DNA of 64,000 nucleotides, from NCBI RefSeq assembly GCF_007748195.1, contig NZ_CP037920.1, forward strand, positions 6,635,300-6,699,299. The letters run 5' to 3'. Positions 7,955 to 46,919 of the stretch are shown piece after piece. The position numbers and the translations under genes were made by a program. This DNA is from Gimesia aquarii. GTDB taxonomy: Bacteria; Planctomycetota; Planctomycetia; Planctomycetales; Planctomycetaceae. The number at the start of each line of letters is the position of its first letter. The first letter of the stretch is position 1. The notes under the pieces were generated by a model. The model was not told the origin of the DNA, searched no databases, and worked only from the letters and a program-made list of their open reading frames with translations.

Positions 7955-8935
7955 ATGTCAAATAGAGTGGAAATAGATGGGGTTGGTTTACACCTGGGCC
8001 GTGCTGACCAGACAAGCAGTGAATGGATCGGTCAACATGAAGCATTGAAACAGCTGCTTGCCTGCTGGCTCGTGATTGATGAGAAAGACATGCCGCTCAC
8101 ACCGCGTCTGGTTGGAACACCGGGAATTGGCAAAACTTCACTCGCCATCGCAGGTGCGCGAACCAGAGATCAAGAGCTCTTCATTTATCAATGTACGGCT
8201 GACACACGACCGGAAGACCTGTTAGTCACCCCTGTTCTCGCCGAGAGTGGCAAGATTGCCTACCATGCTTCCCCACTGGTAACTGCAATGATTCGTGGTG
8301 GTATTTGTGTACTTGATGAAGGCAACCGGATGAATGAAAAGTCATGGGCCAGCCTCGCACCACTTCTTGACCACCGCCGTTATATTGAATCAATTGTTGC
8401 CGGTCTGACAATTCCGGCTCATCCCGAATTTCGCTGTGCCGTGACCATGAATGAAGATGAATCCACGTTTGAAATTCCCGATTATATCCTTAGCCGTCTG
8501 CAACCCAGCATTACTCTGGAACACCCTAATCGGGAAGATGAAAAGATGATTTTGCATTATCATATCCCCTTTGCAGACGAGCACATGCTCGACTTGACGG
8601 TCGATTTTTTACAACAGTCTCATAGTTTAAAGCTCGATTTTTCAACCCGCGATGGAATTAATGTTTTAAGACTGGCATTGAAGCGGGCTGCTCAAGATAA
8701 AGATCACCCTCTCAGCAAAGATGTAATCTGGCTGGAATCACTCAAAAGCTGTCTGGGTGAGGATGCTTTAGATTTGGAGTCATTATCCGAAAAACGAACA
8801 CAAAGTTTGGGTGGAAATATGATGCCAATGGGATTGGGAGATTTCTTTTTCTCACCCGACAACCCGTTACACCCTGACCGCGATGAAGAAGACGATGATG
8901 AATTGGACTTTGATGATGAGCCGGAAAAGTATTAG
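7955..8935 (+). CDS. MoxR-type AAA+ ATPase
   Basis: 326 aa. The Walker A is [12 protein letters not shown] (about 53-64). The Walker B is CVLDEGNRM, and [10 protein letters not shown] and the sensor-1 stretch [21 protein letters not shown] fit the MoxR/AAA_5 pattern of chaperone-like ATPases that remodel or load metal into partner proteins. The C-terminal about 25 residues are strikingly acidic ([15 protein letters not shown]). MoxR proteins normally act with a VWA-domain partner encoded next door, but the downstream neighbour is convergent and the upstream one divergent, so the partner is elsewhere. No Shine-Dalgarno is visible before the ATG. Confidence 0.8.
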
Positions 8936-8998
8936 CCGATTACATACCCGTATTTAGTCATCCCCAACTCTAATATATCAGAACGCCGGCAATACCCA

Positions 8999-11900
8999 CT
9001 ACGGTTTCTGCGCAGCAACAGGCGGCTCTTCAAAGCTGAGCCTGATCTGGAATGGTTCTATTAAAATGTTTTTTCGGTCTACATCGGGCACAACCCAAAT
9101 ACGAGACCGATTGCTACGAGTTGTTTTATCCAAAATTATTTTTCCACTTCGTAAATCAACCAATTTTAAATCAATCTGCGGCCCCTCTCTTGAGGGACGA
9201 CCATTATTTGTTTGTATTCCAAAGACTATCACTGGAAGATCGAGAAACAGTGAGAGATTCACTCCTTGAGATTCCAATGGGCGCGACCACATTAATTCCC
9301 CAGTCTTGCGGTCGATAGAATAGACTCTCCCATTAAAGCCGACTGAGGTCGCACTTAATGAATGGTAAGAGACACCTTTTTTCCTACGAAACGGCTGACT
9401 GGCAAACAGCAAATACTGCCGTGAATTTTGCAGCATAAAAACACCTTTATGCTGAGCAGAAACTTTTTCTTTGACATCAAACTGCTTTTCGCCCGTTCTC
9501 AAATCCAGAAATGAAATGGTTCTCTCATCATCGATCAGTACGACTTCATAATGTTGCCCGAGGGTATAAATCGTTGACTCATTTAACTCACGACTCCAGA
9601 GTGCCTTGCCAGTTATTAAATCTCGTAATTGTAACCGACGGGGCGCTGTTGTTTCAGAAAGTAGGAAACGTTGAAAAGCAAATTTGGGAGACTCTCCTTT
9701 GTCAAGTTTGAATAAACGTAATACCTCGTCATTCTGACCACTTAAACCATTCTGACCACTTAATACGACATAGCGTGAATGAGAAGAAAACGATTCAGTC
9801 GGCACCAGGATGACATGGTCTGCATCGCCAAAATGCATGCTACCATTCACGATTCCCTGACGCTTCCATAATATTTTTCCTGTCAGTAACTCCGCGGCAA
9901 TCAATTCATTGCCGACCTGATATGTGATAAATTCTTCATTAATTGCACCAATTTTTCCTAATAACTCACGGTCCATATTCCGCACTGAAAATTTGCGTAA
10001 CACGGGAGTACCCCCATTGCGTTCAATGGAAATATAGTCACGCACACCCGGTGGGCCTGCAATCAGCCTTTGCTTCCATAACAAGTCAGGTGGATGTGTG
10101 GGGCTCGCATTCAAAGTATCCAGTACGAAAAAATGAGCGCCAAAATTAACAATCAGATATTGCTGATAGACTCGCGCAGAGAAATAAGGTTGACCTGGAA
10201 CTTCAATTTCTGCCTCAACTAACGAGAACGCCCACTGTTGTTTTCCCTGACCGTCAAACGCGTAAAGAAACTCTTTTGCGGGACCGACTTCAATTCGATA
10301 GTTAGTAAAGAGTGAATTCGAGAGACCAATCAACTCAACCGGCAAAGATAAATTCTGACCCTTTGGGTGTTCACCCTGATAAACCTGAGCCGCATATTCA
10401 GGCCAGCCAGAATGAGCCTGCTCCCATTTCTGAAAATCTGATTCAGATCGCCATTCACGCGTTAACTGTGCCGCAGTTTTTCCATCCAAACAAATCAGAT
10501 CTGGCCAACGCGTCTCCAGCTCCTTCAATAACTCGACAGCCTGCGAATAACGATTCGACTGAAGATAAATTTCCGCTAGTTTTGCAGTGGCAAACGCAGT
10601 TATGACTGGTTGCTTTGAAGTTCTCAGATGCTCGAGATGTAGCATCAATTTTCGACGAAGCTGGGGTTGTTGCGCTTCTGAACTATCATTGATGGATTGC
10701 TCAAATAACCGAATCAGCGCCACTCGTGCCTGCTGCGTCTCTGGTAGATTACCACAACAATAAATAAAACGTTCCAGATCAGATCGTTCTGCGTTCGCAA
10801 GATACTTCGCATAATATTCGGAAAAGAGAGACTTGATCAAAGCGCGTTCCCTTGCAGATGCATGAGCTGCGATAAATTCGATTTGAGCTCGAATCCAACG
10901 ATCCATGCGGACAAAAGAACCGCCGTTCGTTTTTTCTGCATGAAATACAGTATTGAGTTCTGAAAGTCGGAAATAACTTTGAAACGCGCCTTCAATATTA
11001 CCTTGCTTTTGGTAATTGATCGCCAGAATTTTAAAGAATTGTTGCTTTTGCTCATCGTTAACCAACAACTTCTCTATTTTCACTTTTTGATTTTGATGCT
11101 GATTGAAGTTGTGCTCCAACTTACTCAGTAACATTTCAGCATAAAGCCGCTTTGCTCGTAAAGTAGGCTTAATCTGAATCGATTTCTCTATTTTCTGCAT
11201 CGCCCGATCAACATCACCAGCAAATAATTCAAGCTCGCCTCGCCAAAGCTGGGCCAATGCTAAATCATCTGGCTGAGTGGATTGACTGGCAAGATGAATT
11301 TGTTGCCGTATTGATTCCACAGACTGAAAGCCAACAACTTCTGTCTCATTCTGAGAGACAATCATTCCCTTTGCGGCAACGAGATTTCCAATTGCCGGCG
11401 CTGTTTTGATTTGTGATCGTACAAGTACAAAACCGTCAGAGAGACGTATGCACAAGATCTCGCCAGTTTCAACCGGTTGATAATACGTATCTTTGACAAC
11501 AACTCCTCGCCCACTGGGTGGGGCAATCAGAGTCGATTTTGGCCAGGCAGGTGAACCGTCACTGACTTTAATTGCTTCAATTTGATCATTACCAACTAAT
11601 AATATTTTCCCTTCGTGGACAGCAGCCACGAACAGGTTGTCCTTACGAAGACGTGACCATAATAATCTTCCATCGAAAAGATTCAGACATTGTATACTTT
11701 GATCTTTGCGGGAATGAATCAAAACTCGATCCCCCACAATGATTGGAGCAAATTCTGCCCAACCTTCTACATTTTTGTAGGTCATAGTTGAATAAATCGC
11801 TAGCCGCGGGTTTATTTCGCCGTCAAGTTTTCTCCACAGCAATCTACGACTGACGGCATCGATGCCGATAGTACAACCGCTACCAGTCTGACAGACAATC

Positions 11901-37741: not shown

Positions 37742-40510
37742 ATGCTTAACCAATGCGCTTGCCGTTTGTTCGTTTTTTGTTGCCTGCTGATTCCTGCCTC
37801 CCACTACCTCAATGCCGCAGAGCAAAATCTGAAAACGTGGCTCGCAAAACCAATTATTGAAAAAGAACTTCCGTGGAAGGAAGTCCAAAAATATGTCGCA
37901 CCTAGAGTCCCTGGAATGCCTGAAATTGACAGTGTAAATGCATGGGAAAAATATATCTCCAAGGTACGTAGTAATGTTTTAAATAAAGTCGTATTCCGAG
38001 GAGAAGCAGCAAAATGGCGTGATTCAAAACTGAATGTTGTCTGGCTCGAAACCATTTCAGGTGGTCCCGAATACAAAATTCAGAAACTGAGATTCGAAGC
38101 GGTACCTGGCCTTTGGGTTCCCGCTCTACTTTATGTTCCGAAACAGCTTAGTGGAAAAGTTCCCGTCGTCATGAATGTCAATGGGCATGATCGGAATGGC
38201 AAAGCAGCCGACTACAAACAGGTACGCTGTATCAATCAGGCCAAACGCGGCATGATCGCATTGAACATTGAATGGTTGGGAATGGGACAATTAAATGTGC
38301 CCGGCCTGATGCATTATCGCATGAATCAATTGGACCTGTGTGGTACGAGTGGACTCGCGCCATTTTATCTTTCTATGGAACGTGGGCTTGACGTCCTGCT
38401 TTCCCACCCCAATGCAGACCCTGAGCGAGTTGCTGTCGCCGGCCTTTCAGGCGGTGGCTGGCAGACGATCTTCATCAGTTCGCTGGATAAACGCGTGACA
38501 CTTTCCAATCCGGTTGCCGGCTATTCCAGCTTTTTGACTCGTAACTATCATACAAAAGATCTGGGAGATTCCGAACAGACTCCCAACGATCTGGCGGTGT
38601 ATGCAGACTACACCCATCTCACAGCCATGCGTGCCCCGCGGCCTACTTTGTTGACCAATAACTCGAAAGACAACTGCTGTTTTGAATCCGGTTATGCACA
38701 GCCCCCACTTCTGAAGGCAGCCTTCCCCGTTTACAAACTATATGACAAAGAAAACTATTTACAGTCGCACGTCAACGACGATCCCGGTGATCACAATTTT
38801 TTACAGGATAATCGCGAAGCGCTGTACCGGATGTTCTCAGCCCACTTTTCCGAACCAGGAAAGCCACTACCCACTAAGGAAATCGAATGTACCTCAGAAA
38901 TAAAATCAGCAGACGAACTTAAAATTGAACTTCCCAAAAATAATGAGACATTTCATTCACTGGCGTTAAGGCTATGCAAAGATCTCCCTCGAAAAGCGGC
39001 TTTTTCTTCTATAAAGAATCCCAGGAAATTGCTCAAAAAGATTGTGCATTACAAAAAAACACTGGCGACGGGAGAAAAAAGCAGTCAAGCGGCGATAGAC
39101 AATACAACCATTAAATTCTGGAAGTTAAGGATCAATGACGACTGGACGGTTCCAGCTACAGAGTTTTCGAAAGGCCCCTCTAAATCAACAACAATCGTTG
39201 TCGCCGATGAAGGTCGCAAAAGTCTGGCATCAACGGTTGAAAAACTGCTTGCGCAAGGTGAAACGGTTCTGGCCATCGATCCCTTTTATTTTGGGGAGTC
39301 AAAAATCAGTCAACGCGATTTCCTGTATGGCCTGTTAGTCGCTTCAGTTGGAGAACGTCCGCTGGGAATCCAGGCGAGTCAGTTAACGGCAATTGCCCGC
39401 TGGTTACAAAAGAAACAAAACCAAAATTCCGTTAAAGTTCAAGCAGAAGGACCTCGCAGCAGCTTGTATACTCTTGCCGCGGCTGCCATTGAACCAAAGA
39501 CCTTTTCTAGCATCAGATTAAAAGATTCGATGGGCTCACTGAAACAAATCATTGAAGAAAATAAGTCCGTCAATCAGGCACCTGAATTATTCTGTTTCGG
39601 ATTACTCAAGGCATTCGACATCAAACAACTTGTGGAACTAGCGGGATCAGAAAAAGTCCAATTCATTGAACCAAGCGATCGCGTCAAACAGGAATTGCCT
39701 CAAATTCGCGTTAACAAAGATGTCAGCTATCTGGGTAAAGAACGCACTGAAAAACTCGACCTGTATTTACCAGACCCCAAGTTTCAGAAAGGGCCTTACC
39801 CCGCAATCATCGTCATCCACGGAGGTGGCTGGCACGGCGGTGATAAGGCAGCTCGACGAGAACAAAACATTGGCAACTCACTCGCCAAAGCGGGTTACGT
39901 TTGTGCCAGTATCAATTATCAACTGGCCAAGAAACGATCAAAATTTACAGACAACCTGAAACAAGTTTGGCCTGGGCATCTACAGGATTGTAAAACGGCT
40001 GTTCGTTTTTTGCGAAAACATGCAAGCCAGTATCAGATTGACGCCGATCACATCGGAGCCATCGGTGGCTCTGCAGGCGGTCATCTGGTCGCCATGCTGG
40101 CTGTCACCGGTAATGATCCCAAACTAGACCCTCAAGAACCCTATGCCGGTTTTTCTTCTCGCATTCAAGCCGTTATTCCCATGTATGGTGCGCATGATCT
40201 GATTGCATTGGCCCAATCACGGGACTTACTGTCTTCATTTTCTGAAGAAGAAAAGCTGCTCAGTCAACAGGCCTCGGCAGTCACTCACGTTACGAATGAT
40301 GATCCTCCATTCCTGATCCTGCATGGTACCAAAGATACTCTGGTTCCTGTTGAGCAATCAGAACTTTTAGCGGCTGCTCTGAAAAAAGGAAATATCCCCG
40401 TAGAATTGCTCATCATCGAGGGAGCACCTCATAGTTTCCATCTCCAGCCAAAACAAAAAGACTTACGGCCACTCGTCATCGGATTCTTTGATCGCCACCT
40501 GAAACCCTGA
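37742..40510 (+). CDS. Exported esterase with three tandem alpha/beta-hydrolase domains
   Basis: 922 aa from the ATG that has GGGAG upstream and opens a clear signal peptide (to about residue 23). Domain 1 (about 90-390) is acetyl-xylan-esterase-like, with the nucleophile in GLSGGGW (Ser236) and a His in GDHNF. Domain 2 (about 430-630) keeps the fold pattern (TTIVVADEG, VLAIDPFYFGES) but its elbow reads AEGPRSSLY, so it is probably inactive. Domain 3 (about 645-920) is a BD-FAE/HSL-like esterase: oxyanion HGGGW, nucleophile GGSAGG (Ser777), acid in HGTKDTLVP and His in GAPHSFHL. It probably deacylates plant or algal polysaccharides in the periplasm. Confidence 0.85.
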   Translation: MLNQCACRLFVFCCLLIPASHYLNAAEQNLKTWLAKPIIEKELPWKEVQKYVAPRVPGMPEIDSVNAWEKYISKVRSNVLNKVVFRGEAAKWRDSKLNVVWLETISGGPEYKIQKLRFEAVPGLWVPALLYVPKQLSGKVPVVMNVNGHDRNGKAADYKQVRCINQAKRGMIALNIEWLGMGQLNVPGLMHYRMNQLDLCGTSGLAPFYLSMERGLDVLLSHPNADPERVAVAGLSGGGWQTIFISSLDKRVTLSNPVAGYSSFLTRNYHTKDLGDSEQTPNDLAVYADYTHLTAMRAPRPTLLTNNSKDNCCFESGYAQPPLLKAAFPVYKLYDKENYLQSHVNDDPGDHNFLQDNREALYRMFSAHFSEPGKPLPTKEIECTSEIKSADELKIELPKNNETFHSLALRLCKDLPRKAAFSSIKNPRKLLKKIVHYKKTLATGEKSSQAAIDNTTIKFWKLRINDDWTVPATEFSKGPSKSTTIVVADEGRKSLASTVEKLLAQGETVLAIDPFYFGESKISQRDFLYGLLVASVGERPLGIQASQLTAIARWLQKKQNQNSVKVQAEGPRSSLYTLAAAAIEPKTFSSIRLKDSMGSLKQIIEENKSVNQAPELFCFGLLKAFDIKQLVELAGSEKVQFIEPSDRVKQELPQIRVNKDVSYLGKERTEKLDLYLPDPKFQKGPYPAIIVIHGGGWHGGDKAARREQNIGNSLAKAGYVCASINYQLAKKRSKFTDNLKQVWPGHLQDCKTAVRFLRKHASQYQIDADHIGAIGGSAGGHLVAMLAVTGNDPKLDPQEPYAGFSSRIQAVIPMYGAHDLIALAQSRDLLSSFSEEEKLLSQQASAVTHVTNDDPPFLILHGTKDTLVPVEQSELLAAALKKGNIPVELLIIEGAPHSFHLQPKQKDLRPLVIGFFDRHLKP

Positions 40511-40530
40511 TTTACCCCGTCCCGCTGGAG

Positions 40531-40558
40531 TTGACAGCAACCCAACCTCTGATAGAAT
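40531..40558 (+). promoter_or_regulatory. Sigma70-like promoter of the metal importer operon
   Basis: TTGACA (40531-40536), a 16-bp spacer, then TAGAAT (40553-40558). This is a near-consensus promoter. The expected start point, 6-9 bases further, falls inside the palindrome at 40564-40587. Confidence 0.75.
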
Positions 40559-40563
40559 AGAGA

Positions 40564-40587
40564 AAAATGTAGCCATGGCTACATTTT
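40564..40587. promoter_or_regulatory. 24-bp perfect palindrome: metalloregulator operator candidate
   Basis: The half-site AAAATGTAGCCA is repeated in perfect inverse with no spacer. It overlaps the predicted transcription start and ends about 38 bp before the importer operon, the classic position for repression. The TAGC/GCTA core recalls E. coli-type MntR boxes. The DtxR-like modules fused to the permeases, or a separate MntR, are the likely binders. Confidence 0.75.
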
Positions 40588-40625
40588 AGTTTTGTCGATA
40601 GCAACGCTCTAACGGGAGTTTATGT

Positions 40626-41621
40626 ATGAGAAGGCTTTTCGCTTTCGTTTTGTTACTGAGTTTTCTGGTTGGATGTAATACAGGAGAAAATCCCTCAACT
40701 AGTAATGCATCAGAATCACAAGATTCAGGAAAAGAACTAACCTATCCGATTCAGGCGGCAGCAACCGTTGGCATGGTTGCAGACCTAATCAAGAACGTTG
40801 GTGGTGATCATGTAAATGTGACTCAAATCATGGGTTCGGGTGTTGATCCTCATATGCATAAGGCAACCCGGGATGACGTGCAAACCATAATGAACGCCGA
40901 TATCGTCTTTTACTCAGGCTTAATGCTGGAAGGTAAAATGGCGGATACATTGATTAAAGTTTCGCGAAACAAACCTGTTTACGCGGTCACAGAATTGATC
41001 GATGAAAAAACATTACTCGAACCAGACGACTTCGATGGTCACTACGATCCGCATGTCTGGATGGACGTCGCTGCCTGGTCAGAATGTGTTGATGCGGTGC
41101 AAACGGCCTTGAGTAATTTCGACCCGACTCATGCAAAAGACTATCAAGAAAACGCGAAAGTATACAAACAACAATTGGAAAACCTGCACCAATATGGTTT
41201 AAAAATCGTAAAGTCAATTCCTGAGGAGAGTCGCATTCTGATTACTTCACATGACGCTTTCAATTATTTTGGTCGCGCTTATGACTTGAATGTGCAAGGC
41301 GTTCAGGGAATTTCGACGGAATCAGAAGCGGGGCTCAAGCGAATTAACGAACTCGTCAATATGCTGGTTAACAAAAATATCAAAGCGGTATTTGTAGAAA
41401 GCAGTGTCTCGAAAAAGAATATCACCGCACTCATCGATGGGGCGAAAGCACAAGGACATGACATCATCATCGGTGGTGAATTATTTTCGGACGCCATGGG
41501 TGAACCGGACACCTATGAGGGTACTTATATTGGAATGCTGGATCATAATTTCACAACCGTCACGCGTGCCTTAGGTGGAACGGCTCCGGAAAGAGGTATG
41601 CAAGACAAACTCTCGCACTGA
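40626..41621 (+). CDS. Metal ABC importer, substrate-binding lipoprotein (TroA/ZnuA family)
   Basis: 331 aa. The lipobox LVGC puts the lipid anchor on Cys17. Cluster A-I solute-binding protein for Mn, Fe or Zn: ligand candidates are the His in GSGVDPHMHK, the His in YDPHVWMDV, the acidic residue in VESSVSKKNI and the Asp in GGELFSDAMG. There is no His-rich loop of the kind seen in zinc-specific ZnuA, so manganese or iron is somewhat more likely. It is the first gene of the operon SBP, ATPase, permease, permease, equivalent to YtgA, and follows the palindrome-covered promoter. GGGAG precedes the start. Confidence 0.9.
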   Translation: MRRLFAFVLLLSFLVGCNTGENPSTSNASESQDSGKELTYPIQAAATVGMVADLIKNVGGDHVNVTQIMGSGVDPHMHKATRDDVQTIMNADIVFYSGLMLEGKMADTLIKVSRNKPVYAVTELIDEKTLLEPDDFDGHYDPHVWMDVAAWSECVDAVQTALSNFDPTHAKDYQENAKVYKQQLENLHQYGLKIVKSIPEESRILITSHDAFNYFGRAYDLNVQGVQGISTESEAGLKRINELVNMLVNKNIKAVFVESSVSKKNITALIDGAKAQGHDIIIGGELFSDAMGEPDTYEGTYIGMLDHNFTTVTRALGGTAPERGMQDKLSH

Positions 41622-41722
41622 TGAAATCAAGCGCAGCACAGCTCATCACCTATAAATTGATTTCCATGAGAGATAAAATCACATTTAGAACCTCAGATAT
41701 TTGATGAATCGATTTCTACCTT

Positions 41723-42538
41723 ATGAATATTAGAGAGAGTTCCACTACGACTACACAACCTGAACTTCCGCCCGAAGAAACTCCGCTCTCGGTCTATGAC
41801 CTGACAGTTGCCTATCATCGAAAGCCCGTAATCTGGGATGTGAGTTTTGAAATTCCGCCGGGCAAATTAGTCGGGATAGTCGGTCCCAACGGTGCCGGCA
41901 AAAGTACATTGATCAAAGCCATCATGGAACTCATCCCCAAAGCTTCCGGACGAGTGCAAATATTTGGTAAACCCTATCAAAAAAATCGACAACGCGTTGG
42001 GTATGTCCCGCAAAGAGAAAGCGTTGACTGGGATTTTCCCGTGGATGCCCTGGATGTCGTGACAATGGGGCTTTACAAAGAAATCGGCTGGTGTCTCCCC
42101 GTTCGTAAAAAGCACCGCGTCCTGGCGATGGATGCGTTAGAACGGGTTGGTATCGCCGATTATGCACGGCGGCAAATCAGTCAGCTTTCTGGTGGTCAAC
42201 AACAGCGGACATTTTTAGCAAGAGCCCTGGTTCAGAATGCCGATTTGTATCTGATGGACGAGCCATTCGCGGCCGTTGATGCCGCTACAGAAAAAGCGAT
42301 TGTCCAGATCCTGCAGGAAATGAAAGAGGCAGGAAAAACGGCGCTGGTCATTCACCATGATCTGCAAACCGTACCCGAGTATTTTGACTATGTGATCTTA
42401 CTCAATATGAGAGTCATCGATCACGGTTTAACCGCTGACGTGTTCACCCCAGAGAATCTTCAAAAGACCTATGGCGGACGCTTGACGTTATTGGAAGAAG
42501 CGACAGAAACCATGCGACGCCGGGAGCAGTCTTTATGA
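41723..42538 (+). CDS. Metal ABC importer ATPase (TroB/ZnuC family)
   Basis: 271 aa. Walker A GIVGPNGAGKSTLIKAI (about 48-64), signature QLSGGQQQRTFLARAL, Walker B LYLMDEPFAAVD and switch His in VIHHD. It energises uptake through the two permeases that follow. The stop overlaps the start of the first permease (ATGA), so translation is coupled. The N-terminal about 20 residues, rich in Thr/Pro/Glu, are an extension relative to the family. Confidence 0.95.
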   Translation: MNIRESSTTTTQPELPPEETPLSVYDLTVAYHRKPVIWDVSFEIPPGKLVGIVGPNGAGKSTLIKAIMELIPKASGRVQIFGKPYQKNRQRVGYVPQRESVDWDFPVDALDVVTMGLYKEIGWCLPVRKKHRVLAMDALERVGIADYARRQISQLSGGQQQRTFLARALVQNADLYLMDEPFAAVDAATEKAIVQILQEMKEAGKTALVIHHDLQTVPEYFDYVILLNMRVIDHGLTADVFTPENLQKTYGGRLTLLEEATETMRRREQSL

Positions 42539-44046
42539 GGCCGTACTTTCTGGTGTTTCTACTTGCCAGTTTTGTTCCGCAATCGTTAGTCATTGCCGAA
42601 GATAATGCAAGAGAAATTCAGTCACAACAGTCCATCACGGACCGGAGCATCACAATGCCCACATGGTCGGATTGGAAACGCGTTTTATTTTTACAGGATT
42701 ATAACACAAGGATCGTAATCCTGGGCACTACACTCTTGGGAATGTCAGCCGGTATGGTTGGCAGCTTTGCCTTATTACGCAAACGAGCACTGATGGGAGA
42801 CGCATTAAGTCACGCCACTCTTCCCGGTATTGCGATTGCCTTTATTGTCGCTACAACATTGGGGCTGGATGGAAAATCACTGCCAGTTTTACTCGTGGGA
42901 GCCGCTTTAAGTGGCTTAATGGGGATCGCCACCATTCTCCTCATCCGAAACCTGACACGTTTAAAAGAAGATGCCGCATTAGGAATTGTGCTGAGCGTAT
43001 TTTTTGGCGCTGGAATCGCGCTCCTGGGAATCGTACAACAAATGGAAACCGGTCATGCTGCTGGCCTGGAATCATTCATTTATGGGAAGACCGCCTCGAT
43101 GGTCGCCAGCGATGCCTGGCTTATCGGGAGTGCTGGTATGACTTGTATGCTGATTTCCATTCTGTTGTTTAAAGAATTGACACTCCTTTGTTTTGATGAA
43201 GGTTTTGCCGACTCACGTGGCTTCCCCGTCGTTTTTCTGGACATGATGCTGATGGGGCTGGTGGTTGTGGTTACCATCATTGGACTGCAAGCGGTGGGAT
43301 TGATTCTGATGATTTCTCTATTGGTCATTCCTCCTGCTGCAGCACGTTTCTGGACCGAAAAAATGGTCAACATGACAATCGTGGCCATCGTGCTCGGAGC
43401 CCTTAGTAGTATGATCGGCTCAGCCATGAGTGCCATCTTTCCCAATCTTCCCTCGGGTGCAATGATTGTGCTGGTCTCGACGGCGATGTTCTTGTTCAGC
43501 ATGGTCTTTGGTGTTCCACGCGGCATCTTGATCCGTAAACTACGACGATACGAATTGAACACAAAAATCAATCGACAACACCTGCTACGTGGCATTTATG
43601 AATACCTTGAAGCGCGTGGACTTCTCAATGAAAAACAGAGATTGGAATCCATACAGGTCCCCATTGACGCAGTCTTTCAAATGCGAAGCTGGTCTCGACC
43701 GAAACTCAAAAAAATCATAAAACGCGCCCAACAAGAACAACTTGTCGAACTAGTTCATGAAAATCAGATGCAACTCACGGAAGCAGGGCTCAAAGAAGCA
43801 ATTCGACTCGTACACGAACATCGTTTGTGGGAACTGTATTTGATCACATATGCCGATGTTGCTCCGAGTAAAGTCGATCAGGATGCCGATGCGATCGAAC
43901 ATGTCCTGGAACCAGAAGTGATCTCAGAATTAGAATCGTTGCTGGTTCAACAAACATCTGAAGGGGTACTTCAAAGTCCACACACGATAGAGATTGATCG
44001 AAACAAAACCAATTCACAAAATCCTCATGCTCGAAGGTTACGCTAA
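42535..44046 (+). CDS. Metal ABC importer permease fused to a DtxR/MntR-like regulator
   Basis: 503 aa. A hydrophobic, signal-like N-terminus (about 1-22) is an addition. The ABC-3 permease (about 55-325) has the hallmark GDALSHATLPGIAI. From about 345 to 470 it carries a winged-helix plus dimerisation module like DtxR/MntR: a HTH region with LKKIIKRAQQEQLVEL, the wing ending LTEAGLKEAI, the ligand motif EHRLWEL, and DADAIEHVLEPEV (the MntR-type E-x-x-E-H with the first Glu changed to Asp). The same permease-repressor fusion is known as YtgCR in Chlamydia, where cleavage frees the repressor. ATGA overlap with the ATPase and TAATG overlap with the next permease indicate tight coupling. Confidence 0.88.
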   Translation: MRPYFLVFLLASFVPQSLVIAEDNAREIQSQQSITDRSITMPTWSDWKRVLFLQDYNTRIVILGTTLLGMSAGMVGSFALLRKRALMGDALSHATLPGIAIAFIVATTLGLDGKSLPVLLVGAALSGLMGIATILLIRNLTRLKEDAALGIVLSVFFGAGIALLGIVQQMETGHAAGLESFIYGKTASMVASDAWLIGSAGMTCMLISILLFKELTLLCFDEGFADSRGFPVVFLDMMLMGLVVVVTIIGLQAVGLILMISLLVIPPAAARFWTEKMVNMTIVAIVLGALSSMIGSAMSAIFPNLPSGAMIVLVSTAMFLFSMVFGVPRGILIRKLRRYELNTKINRQHLLRGIYEYLEARGLLNEKQRLESIQVPIDAVFQMRSWSRPKLKKIIKRAQQEQLVELVHENQMQLTEAGLKEAIRLVHEHRLWELYLITYADVAPSKVDQDADAIEHVLEPEVISELESLLVQQTSEGVLQSPHTIEIDRNKTNSQNPHARRLR

Positions 44047-45374
44047 TGAGTGGGTTGGAACAGTGGAACTGGTCTCTTGATGGGTGGATCATCGCCGCTG
44101 GCATTTTGTGTGCTGTCTCGTCGGCTCTATTGGGAAATTTTCTCGTCCTGCGGAAAATGAGTATGCTCGGCGATGCTATTACGCATGCCATTTTACCCGG
44201 TCTGGCAGCAGCGTTCTTTATCAGCGACAGTCGTAGTAGTATTCCGATGTTTGCTGGTGCAGTTTTAGCAGGTATCCTAACGGCGTTATTTACAGAATGG
44301 ATTCGGAGCTTTGGGAAAGTAGACGAAGGGGCCTCGATGGGTGTAGTCTTCACCTCTCTATTTGCTTTAGGTCTGGTGATGATCGTGCAAGCAGCAGATC
44401 ATGTTGATCTGGACCCGGGGTGTGTTCTATATGGAGCGATCGAACTGACCCCCCTTGATACAATCCTCATTTCCGGTTGGGAAATACCGCGTGTTGTCGT
44501 GGTGCTGTCTGTTGTGTTACTGATCAATCTTTTATTTGTGGTCCTGTTTCTCAAAGAATTGAAACTCAGTTCATTTGACCCGGCCCTGGCAACCACGACA
44601 GGTTTTAATGCCACACTCATTCATTATACTTTGATGACACTCGTTGCCGTTACCGCAGTCGCCAGTTTTGAAACGGTAGGAAATATCCTCGTGGTGGCGA
44701 TGTTTGTCGTACCGCCGGCTGCCGCTTATATGTTAACAGATCGCCTGGTACGCATGATTATTCTCAGTGCCATTCTGGCAATCATCGCAGCAGTCCTCGG
44801 TCATATCAGCGCGATGACGGTTCCTCGCTGGTTTGGGTTTCAGAGCACATCCACAGCGGGAATGATGGCAGTCGCCGCAGGATTGCTGTTTATCATCGCA
44901 GCGTTATTTGCACCACGACATGGAATCATTGTTGTCTTTGTGCGAAGGCAGATCCTTGCCTGGAAAATTCTTGCTGAAGACATCATCGCTTTGATGTACC
45001 GGATCGAAGAACGTGATCCTCAACTAAAACCTGATGCGACTTACCTGAGAGAAATTCTTTTTTCGAGTCCGCTGCCTACCGATTGGAGTCTCCACTTCCT
45101 GGCTAGACATGGTCAAGTTATCGATTCAAATGGAACCTACGAGTTAACGGAAACTGGTCGTGATCGCGCGCGACAATTAGTACGCTCTCATCGACTATGG
45201 GAACATTACTTAGTTGAACACGCAGGTATGTCTGCTGAAAACATTCACAAACAGGCCGAACAACTGGAACACTTCACCGATCGACAGTTGCGCGAAAAAT
45301 TGAATAAAGACACGTTAGACACTGACCAAGATCCACACGGGCGCCCCATTCCACCGGAGGATGAGAGGGGTTAA
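44046..45374 (+). CDS. Second metal ABC importer permease fused to a DtxR/MntR-like regulator
   Basis: 442 aa. ABC-3 permease (about 8-295) with GDAITHAILPGLAAAF and VAMFVVPPAAAYML. The soluble tail (about 305-442) is a second, better conserved DtxR-like module: LAEDIIALMYRIEE at the first helix (with an Asp and Glu near MntR Asp8/Glu11), the wing ELTETGRDRARQLV, SHRLWEHYL, the metal motif QAEQLEHF and the family C-terminal motif DPHGRPIPPED. It would pair with the first permease in the membrane. The chlamydial YtgD permease lacks such a tail, so a double fusion is notable. Confidence 0.88.
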   Translation: MSGLEQWNWSLDGWIIAAGILCAVSSALLGNFLVLRKMSMLGDAITHAILPGLAAAFFISDSRSSIPMFAGAVLAGILTALFTEWIRSFGKVDEGASMGVVFTSLFALGLVMIVQAADHVDLDPGCVLYGAIELTPLDTILISGWEIPRVVVVLSVVLLINLLFVVLFLKELKLSSFDPALATTTGFNATLIHYTLMTLVAVTAVASFETVGNILVVAMFVVPPAAAYMLTDRLVRMIILSAILAIIAAVLGHISAMTVPRWFGFQSTSTAGMMAVAAGLLFIIAALFAPRHGIIVVFVRRQILAWKILAEDIIALMYRIEERDPQLKPDATYLREILFSSPLPTDWSLHFLARHGQVIDSNGTYELTETGRDRARQLVRSHRLWEHYLVEHAGMSAENIHKQAEQLEHFTDRQLREKLNKDTLDTDQDPHGRPIPPEDERG

Positions 45375-45418
45375 ACAAGTTCTGAACGCTATCTATCAAT
45401 GGTTTCAAAATGCTAGTC

Positions 45419-45449
45419 GCAAAAGTTTGGAGTCTGCCTTTCCTTTTGC
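45419..45449 (+). terminator. Possible weak terminator of the metal importer operon
   Basis: GCAAAAG / CTTTTGC (7 bp) with a 17-base loop, about 45 bp past the last stop. No good T-run follows. Confidence 0.3.
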
Positions 45450-45554
45450 AGCGATTTCATCTGGCAATTTATTAATCCACAACATATAATCAACCACTGA
45501 TATGTAATCAGTCTTGAAAGCGTACCCTACGAATACGGAATGGGAAGAAACCGT

Positions 45555-46919
45555 ATGGCAGGTAAGGTTTGTAACGGACCAGTAAATCGACGCGAGTTTA
45601 TGCGAATTGGTTCTCTCAGTTTGGGAGGACTCACGCTTTCGCAGTTGATGTCTCTACGTAGCGAAGCCGGACAACCCAAGCAGGATACTTCTGTGATTTT
45701 GCTGTTTCTGCATGGGGGCCCTTCACAGCTGGAAACATACGACCTCAAACCTGATGCTCCTTCCTCCTATCGTTCTGTATTTCAGCCCATTTCCACTAAC
45801 GTTCCGGGAATGGATATCTGCGAGTTATTTCCGAAGCAGGCCAAAATTGCCGACAAATTCTCTTTAGTCCGCTCACTGCATCACGATGTAGGAATACACA
45901 GTGACGGGGGTATCATTGTTCTTACCGGAAAACGGCCTTCCAAGCTGGATCCCTCGTCCCGATCGAAAAGCGAACATCCTGATTTCGGATCGATCACGAG
46001 TAAGATCCGTGGTCTATCGGAAGCTGGCACACCTCCTTATGTCTCGATTCCTTCGAAGTTCTACATGGTACAACCAACTTACCTCGGCATGCAGCATGGC
46101 CCCTTTGAATCGAGTGAACCTTCCTCGAAAAATTATCGTCCTCCTTCACTGAAACTGAATGCGGGCATGGACGGGAAACACTTATTGGAACGCCGACAAC
46201 TGCTTGAGCAGTTTGATCGTCTACGAAATGATCTCGATCTTTCCGGTGATCTGGAAGGCAACGAAAAGTTTCGCAACCTCGCATTCCAAATGTTAACGAG
46301 CCCGGAAGCAGCGAAGTCGTTTGATATCGCCCTTGAAGATGATCAACTCCGTGAGCGGTACGGACGCAATATGTGGGGACAAGGCTGTCTCCTGGCCCGT
46401 CGTTTGGCGCAAGCTGGTTGTGGTGTTGTTTCGCTCTACTTTAATACACCTAAAACCGGTCAGGAATTTACGAACTGGGACGACCATATTTCCAACGCTG
46501 GTCGACCCGGACACTTTGCAAAATATATGAGCATTCGGCTGTCTTACATGGACCAGGCACTGACAACACTCATCGAAGACATTCATGAACGTAATCTTGA
46601 TAAGAAGATTATGGTCGTCGCCGTAGGTGAATTCGGACGGACTCCTCGTCTCTCATCAAATAACACGGGAACGGGCCGTAATCACTGGCCAGAGGCATAC
46701 ACGGCGTTATTTTCTGGTGGTAACCTGAAAATGGGTCAAGTCGTGGGAGCCACAAATTCGAAAGCAGAGTATCCGACACATAGCCCCTACACTCCTCAAG
46801 ATATGCTGGCCACGATCTACCAACATCTGGGCATCGATTACGACAAGTCGATCGTTGATTTCCAGGGTCGCCCTATTCCAATTCTGCCGCACGGTAAACC
46901 GATTAAAGAATTAATTTAA
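45555..46919 (+). CDS. DUF1501 Tat-exported protein
   Basis: 454 aa from the ATG with GGGAAG at 7 bases; an ATG five codons upstream is the alternative. Twin-arginine signal NRREFMRIGSLSLGGL (about 10-25). The DUF1501 (sulfatase/phosphatase-like alkaline-phosphatase fold) motifs LLFLHGGPSQLETYDLKP, HHDVGIHSDGG and VAVGEFGRTPRLS are clear, and GRNHW follows. Planctomycetes encode dozens, normally paired with a DUF1549/DUF1553 cytochrome-like protein; here no partner is adjacent. Its substrate is unknown. Confidence 0.9.
   Translation: MAGKVCNGPVNRREFMRIGSLSLGGLTLSQLMSLRSEAGQPKQDTSVILLFLHGGPSQLETYDLKPDAPSSYRSVFQPISTNVPGMDICELFPKQAKIADKFSLVRSLHHDVGIHSDGGIIVLTGKRPSKLDPSSRSKSEHPDFGSITSKIRGLSEAGTPPYVSIPSKFYMVQPTYLGMQHGPFESSEPSSKNYRPPSLKLNAGMDGKHLLERRQLLEQFDRLRNDLDLSGDLEGNEKFRNLAFQMLTSPEAAKSFDIALEDDQLRERYGRNMWGQGCLLARRLAQAGCGVVSLYFNTPKTGQEFTNWDDHISNAGRPGHFAKYMSIRLSYMDQALTTLIEDIHERNLDKKIMVVAVGEFGRTPRLSSNNTGTGRNHWPEAYTALFSGGNLKMGQVVGATNSKAEYPTHSPYTPQDMLATIYQHLGIDYDKSIVDFQGRPIPILPHGKPIKELI

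Follow-up and report, generated by a model that had tools for sequence, protein, structure and literature searches.

Both permeases of a predicted manganese importer in Gimesia aquarii end in DtxR-type domains that may act as a built-in brake on import

We analysed a stretch of 64,000 nucleotides from Gimesia aquarii (contig NZ_CP037920.1, positions 6,635,300 to 6,699,299; hereafter the window), in which open frames and Pfam matches delineate a four-gene operon on the + strand for a binding-protein lipoprotein, an ATPase and two permeases. This is the layout of an ABC-3 manganese/iron/zinc importer, with binding protein, ATPase and ABC-3 permeases in a single operon. Both permeases end in a DtxR/MntR-type domain, as an earlier note on this DNA, made from the letters alone, had claimed. 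We consider it fairly probable that these two non-identical tails are sensors seated on the gate helices that stop import at high cytosolic manganese (or iron), and that a free MntR controls transcription. The genes, in window coordinates, are as follows.

40626..41621, + strand: metal-binding lipoprotein of the importer, ZnuA/AztC/MntC type (PF01297, 253 bits).
41723..42538, + strand: ATPase subunit, Mn/Fe type (the top NCBIfam models are Mn/Fe ATP-binding proteins, with scores below their cut-offs).
42535..44046, + strand: permease 1, 503 amino acids, ABC-3 domain followed by DtxR-type tail 1 (open frame, Pfam, structure model).
44046..45374, + strand: permease 2, 442 amino acids, ABC-3 domain followed by DtxR-type tail 2 (open frame, Pfam, structure model).

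Within permease 1, Pfam assigns residues 57-325 to the ABC-3 domain (E 1.8e-59) and residues 415-470 to Fe_dep_repr_C (PF02742, 49.5 bits); the corresponding assignments in permease 2 are residues 16-288 (E 2.9e-44) and 368-436 (74.4 bits). The Pfam cut-off for PF02742 is 27 bits, well below either score, which rules out a chance match. The earlier note had named the lack of a DtxR-type profile match in either tail as fatal to its claim; both tails match. The motifs it had pointed out are also present, HRLWE and AIEH/QLEH in both tails and DPHGRPIP in tail 2. Only in part could we follow it on the winged helix. The DtxR DNA-binding profile PF01325 has no match in either tail up to E 1, so that this typical DtxR/MntR domain is not recognized by Pfam, whereas the metal-binding/dimerisation domain with its ligands is found in both. 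The winged helix is predicted from the structure models, in which each tail is a winged helix plus a metal domain, and from MntR/DtxR profiles that overlap the tails weakly, below cut-off. By eye, a signal-peptide-like stretch opens permease 1 ahead of the first membrane span (window 42535-42600).

The PDB sequences matching the tails are DtxR, IdeR, SloR, ScaR and manganese-dependent regulators. In the models of both permeases, the permease part matches PsaBC (7kyp; E 6e-15 and 7e-15). The modelled tail of permease 2 is DtxR-type and matches the manganese repressor DR2539 (8pvt, rmsd 1.7 Å, target TM 0.83); that of permease 1 is poorer, with DtxR (1ddn) matched at E 5e-3 and rmsd 4.3. From models and alignments, the following parts were delineated.

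43525..43614, + strand: single predicted 30-residue helix, permease 1 residues 331-360, after the last membrane span and turning into helix 1 of tail 1 (in the trimmed model H290-319, with a block pLDDT of 86-88; conserved in relatives).
43663..43776, + strand: DNA-reading part of tail 1 (helix 2, helix 3 and wing), drifting (model and alignment).
43777..43944, + strand: metal-binding/dimerisation part of tail 1, PF02742, with H, E, D, D, E, H invariant in 25/25 aligned tails.
44925..45014, + strand: single predicted 30-residue helix, permease 2 residues 294-323, after the last membrane span and becoming helix 1 of tail 2 (block pLDDT 87-91).
45147..45353, + strand: metal-binding/dimerisation part of tail 2, PF02742, with ligand positions H, E, H, E, E, H and DPHGRPIP.

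No flexible linker or long loop is predicted between the last span and the tail in the models of both permeases. Past the last span, basic residues outnumber acidic ones (K+R 8 versus D+E 3 in permease 1, 6 versus 4 in permease 2). From the models, this charge and the likeness to MntBC, the tails are predicted to lie on the cytosolic side. Truncation of the cytosolic extension of the last helix of Bacillus anthracis MntBC is described as abolishing transport while membrane expression was kept (PMC8487065). By analogy, we infer that this extension corresponds to the tail-bearing helix here. A metal sensor on the post-span helix would sit where it could stop the gate.

The fusions recur in relatives. 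Permease 2 and tail 2 share one open frame in all 25 related loci from public genomes, and permease 1 and tail 1 in 23 of them, two of which (L017 and L022) reach the contig edge and are cut. The exceptions are L020, which a contig edge cuts down to the tail, and L027, with no permease 1 in 13.3 kb. The fusion is therefore no frame error, the second objection that the earlier note had foreseen. Nor is it peculiar to this genome, as it recurs both in these loci and in a sample of 59 Planctomycetota genomes, evenly drawn across the phylum. At an ABC-3 threshold of E up to 1e-10, this sample has an ABC-3 permease in 52 genomes, a PF02742 match in 34 and a fusion of the two in 20. A further 20 stretches were picked by hand, and the layouts there are no frequency sample. 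Two tailed permeases lie in L041, L046 and L054, as well as in L053, where one of them is truncated by the end of the stretch; a lone tailed permease with no partner beside it lies in L037, L038, L039, L044, L045, L049 and L051. The double fusion is thus an established arrangement in Planctomycetota, not the sole one.

Some single loci deserve separate mention. In L042 and L043, permease 2 keeps only a winged-helix-like stub (L042:6654-7052 (+), L043:3694-4059 (-)), with no metal domain and with weak winged-helix matches below cut-off. At L055:1-2144 (-), a single stop-free frame spans permease 1, its tail and the beginning of permease 2, which is either a genuine fusion of three parts or an error in the sequence. 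The contig of L022 is labelled Bdellovibrionales and encodes a permease 2 with 64% identity linked to a tailed permease 1; it is perhaps a misplaced planctomycete contig. Outside the phylum, no clear case of a fusion was among the plasmid-search matches listed (30 of 1248 records). The best of those listed is from Deinococcus deserti, with 81% of the query covered and a protein of ~363 amino acids.

The metal site is the conserved portion of the tails. At positions 79, 83, 105 and 106, in what we take to be DtxR numbering, the residues are H, E, E and H in 25/25 tail 1 and 26/26 tail 2 sequences. Tail 1 adds H at position 10 in 24 sequences (with one gap) and D at both 98 and 102 in 25/25, tail 2 adds D at 10 and H at 98 in 26/26 and E at 102 in 24/26. 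The ligand sets thus read H,H,E,D,D,E,H in tail 1 versus D,H,E,H,E,E,H in tail 2, and by their aligned residues the two tails carry different, separately conserved metal sites. Of the two options in the earlier note, the membrane-tethered sensor is the one supported.

The DNA-reading part drifts. We used the free MntR of the same genomes as a control for relatedness, in 15 genomes (105 pairs); the motif filter had recovered 16 of the 21 MntR genes, and 15 of those had both tails. Two MntR genes in this work carry an internal stop, and the open piece alone was used. Mean pairwise identity in the reading and metal parts was 0.648 and 0.636 for MntR, 0.352 and 0.729 for tail 1, and 0.324 and 0.652 for tail 2. 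For this contrast between the parts, the MntR-minus-tail difference was 0.39 (bootstrap 0.34-0.44) for tail 1 and 0.34 (0.30-0.38) for tail 2. The reading part was less identical than the metal part in 105/105 pairs for each tail, versus 42/105 for MntR. A proline in the wing was present in 11/12 free MntR and 4/7 free DtxR-type regulators and in 0/73 transporter-linked tails; this count covers all 12 free MntR, whereas the alignment-based MntR group is without three of them (L044, L045 and L049).

Unfused regulators accompany the fusions. The G. aquarii genome has two with a PF02742 match, one of which (C1:1133879) is an E. coli-type MntR with 167 bits against an NCBIfam cut-off of 153 and 53/124 residues identical to E. 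coli MntR. An unfused PF02742 match is present in all 20 fusion-bearing genomes of the phylum sample, where unfused means outside the open frame of any ABC-3 match and some such frames are long and uncurated; one of these matches in G025, in a 475-amino-acid frame, may be a fused tail, and another unfused match remains there. E. coli-type MntR scores above cut-off in 20/24 genomes of the related loci. An mntR gene is divergent and adjacent to the operon in 5/25 of these loci (L012, L013, L023, L025 and L029), and an unfused MntR/DtxR-type gene shares the stretch with a tailed permease in 10/16 more distant stretches.

Two elements precede the operon.

40531..40558, + strand: sigma-70-like promoter TTGACA-16-TAGAAT with TG before the second hexamer (11/12 matches; top of 6 candidates in 40400-45600).
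40564..40587, strandless: perfect 24-bp palindrome AAAATGTAGCCATGGCTACATTTT, predicted MntR operator with core TAGC-N4-GCTA, five bases between it and the -10 hexamer.

The 6 promoter candidates in 40400-45600 compare with a shuffle average of 7.7, so that only the rank and position of this promoter are telling. The core TAGC-N4-GCTA also occurs upstream of E. coli mntH, with a second site inside mntH, and twice between mntS and mntR. Among the 19 operons covered together with the binding-protein gene (the window and close relatives), 15 have the core upstream, and in L012, L013 and L023 the core is flanked by the operon on one side and the divergent mntR on the other. L025 has two sites with one mismatch and L029 one site with two. 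In the 7.4 Mb genome there are 3 exact copies of the 16-base palindrome. The palindrome also scores as a terminator-like hairpin; a role as terminator only was rejected because the core is conserved beside divergent mntR and at E. coli targets. The MntR gene, the MntR-type palindrome at the promoter and the divergent mntR neighbours together suggest that transcription of the operon is most likely run by free MntR at the predicted operator.

The same palindrome precedes a DUF1559 gene elsewhere in the G. aquarii genome (L035:1839-2924; C1, near 1129967), whose product has a pilin-like N-terminus (PF07596 and N_methyl, Pfam). By eye, it also precedes DUF1559 look-alikes in four other genomes (L058, L063, L072 and L073); in several of these five cases it is a tandem pair. 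This suggests that the palindrome-preceded gene may encode a manganese-regulated surface protein.

We therefore propose two layers of control for what would be a two-permease importer. Its metal is most likely manganese, since the palindrome is MntR-type, with iron also possible. Free MntR, separate from the importer, would shut off transcription at the palindrome (40564-40587) beside the promoter. The DtxR-type tails would no longer be repressors; they would be cytosolic metal sensors built into the transporter, each hung on a predicted rigid continuation of the last membrane helix. We infer that, with plentiful cytosolic manganese (or iron), the two chemically different tail sites would load, the loaded tails would pair beneath the membrane, and the gate helices would be held, so that import stops. 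Such a brake would be fast and post-translational (trans-inhibition), beside the slow transcriptional control. Pairing of the two tails is attractive in this scheme, not required.

Known importers offer partial parallels. MetNI and ModABC are described as trans-inhibited, with an extra domain in the cytosol to which the imported substrate binds and which then halts transport (PMC10710835), and the tails may act in an analogous way. The add-on of MetNI and ModABC is, however, described as lying on the ATPase side and having other folds, whereas here a DtxR-type domain is on both permeases; in that review of transporter switching, the word "DtxR" occurs 0 times. With the manganese importers PsaBC and MntBC the system shares the permease fold (7kyp) and, in the case of MntBC, a cytosolic extension of the last helix (PMC8487065). 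Unlike the two-permease importer here, those are described as homodimeric (PMC11779740), and the solved PsaC chains (258-290 residues) are without such a tail.

Several observations weigh against the proposed brake. The model of permease 1 is weak in the metal part, with pLDDT <50 in places. The third helix of tail 1 is still basic, with a mean net charge of +3.7 versus +1.4 in free MntR. The seven free DtxR-type regulators are also less conserved in the reading part (helices 0.42, wing 0.48) than in the metal part (0.59), although this deficit is milder than that of the tails, and faster drift of an aligned reading part does not prove lost DNA binding. Regarding the operator, the core was found in only 1/14 more distant loci and not in the two-tailed L041, L046 and L054, and L011 and L028 are without it up to two mismatches. 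The pattern is also not enriched genome-wide: up to one mismatch, our genome has 5 sites versus 29 for the reversed control, and in 13 related genomes there are 29 exact sites versus 20 in the control. The operator argument therefore rests on position, not number. Finally, the metal domain is on permease 1 only in L042 and L043, and the tail on permease 2 only in L047 and L052. Since some relatives have one metal-binding tail, paired metal-binding tails per transporter are no general requirement. In G018 (C1:960664 and 4508032) and G052 (C30 and C34), the two fused permeases are unlinked.

The earlier note had proposed a phylogeny of the tails against YtgR and free MntR. Our tree has 60 rows, all from Planctomycetota, with 9/25 tail 1 and 10/26 tail 2 rows picked by hand and the root unknown. 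A branch with 100/99 support divides all 41 transporter-linked rows (tails of permease 1, of permease 2 and of single permeases, and those fused to FeoA) from all 19 free regulators. Given this complete separation, the tails look like a distinct family that moved along with the transporters. The idea that neighbouring repressors were captured recently and independently finds no support, all tails lying on the same side of that branch. The tails resemble free MntR (E. coli type, NF008273) and DtxR/IdeR in fold and in the metal-binding/dimerisation domain; they differ in being separate in the tree, fused to the membrane part and poorly conserved in the reading part.

DtxR-type domains are linked to other transporters as well. 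They are fused to FeoA domains at L056:5107-6192 and L040:5307-6341 (Pfam) and at L048:3241-4932 (by eye), and the DtxR-FeoA genes of L056 and L040 lie directly upstream of feoB. In L056 and L048, by eye, the DtxR domain is preceded by a membrane-span-like stretch similar to the final part of an ABC-3 permease. At L050:5442-6533 (-) and 8459-9916 (-), an ABC ATPase has a C-terminal PF02742; the genes clustered with it encode an FTR1/FtrD-like iron permease and, by eye, two MacB-like membrane proteins.

Tentatively, the transporter-borne DtxR-type domains of Planctomycetota may be a metal-sensor family in its own right, and an old one. On ABC-3 importers they would be used as an allosteric brake, either as two non-identical sites forming a heterodimer under two permeases or as one kind on a single-permease transporter. 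Others would work beside FeoB (DtxR plus FeoA domains, some with a membrane span) or on the ATPase of an FTR1-linked ABC system. Such a family would amount to a class of trans-inhibition domains recruited from a transcription-factor family.

Other functions of the tails have to be weighed against the brake. The closest known system is YtgCR of Chlamydia trachomatis (ytgABCD), described as an ABC-3 permease with a C-terminal DtxR-like domain and a second permease in the operon (PMC5599777, PMC6504234, PMC7755916). A review (PMC5599777) states that permease-DtxR fusions occur in 11 phyla (citing Thompson et al. 2012) and extends the repressor reading of YtgCR to fusions in other phyla. With YtgCR described and fusions reported so widely, the permease-DtxR fusion itself is already known, and the permeases here agree with it in that the ABC-3 part and the DtxR-type domain are read from a single frame. 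In the Chlamydia descriptions one permease (YtgC) is fused, whereas here both are. The earlier note's remark that a double fusion goes beyond YtgABCR-D fits these descriptions; the arrangement is, as seen above, not unique to this genome and recurs in related Planctomycetota loci.

By analogy with YtgCR, whose repressor part is described as cleaved off (PMC5599777, PMC7755916), one or both tails might be cut off and then repress the operon, or other genes, in a metal-dependent manner. The domain order equals that of YtgCR, both tails model as a winged helix plus metal domain, and tail 1 retains the basic third helix. We nevertheless regard release as improbable. The models are without a flexible linker at which the tail joins the last span, and the tails' DNA-reading part drifts where the MntR of the same genomes is conserved; a conserved sensor with a drifting reading part disfavours a released repressor. 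Free MntR and the MntR-type palindrome account for transcription, whereas YtgR represses at DNA and is described as the only identified iron-dependent regulator of Chlamydia (PMC6504234). Two features of YtgCR thus fail here, as the fused domain is not the sole such regulator of the cell (the genome also encodes two free ones, MntR and another with PF02742) and, by the proxy of conservation, its DNA-reading part is not conserved. These failures set the planctomycete double fusion apart from YtgCR. Of the earlier note's reading as a YtgCR-type fusion, the double permease-DtxR fusion, the YtgCR-like layout and the conserved ligands hold, and the cleaved-off repressor role is disfavoured.

It is likewise unlikely that the tails serve as acceptors for the metal or brace the structure, aiding import or assembly without inhibiting it. 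Conserved ligands and a post-span helix would be equally needed for a role in transfer or assembly, and the activity of MntBC is described as needing its last-helix cytosolic extension (PMC8487065). Against such a role speak the many tail-less ABC-3 permeases in relatives (52 genomes of the phylum sample with ABC-3, 20 with a fusion) and the descent of the DtxR-type site, presumably a sensing site. Docking of free MntR to the tails in mixed DtxR-type dimers, which would retain MntR at the membrane depending on the state of transport and let the transporter tune its own repressor, could draw on the dimerisation part kept in the tails and on the coexistence of free MntR in 20/24 genomes of related loci, yet appears very unlikely given that tails and MntR form well-separated groups (100/98 and 100/99 branches) with different ligand sets.

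Neither a double permease-DtxR fusion nor a DtxR-type transporter brake was named in the titles and abstract openings searched, a scope outside which most of the subscription literature lies. Permease-DtxR fusions have so far been interpreted via YtgCR, as repressors parked on a permease. In the system described here, the sensor appears to have been kept and DNA let go, while an ordinary MntR runs the promoter. If this is true, a fused DtxR-type domain should not by default receive a regulator annotation in databases, and a fold known from transcription factors would have been turned into a transporter brake. Cytosolic feedback on manganese import could be tested directly in this system, where the ligand residues stand ready for mutation.

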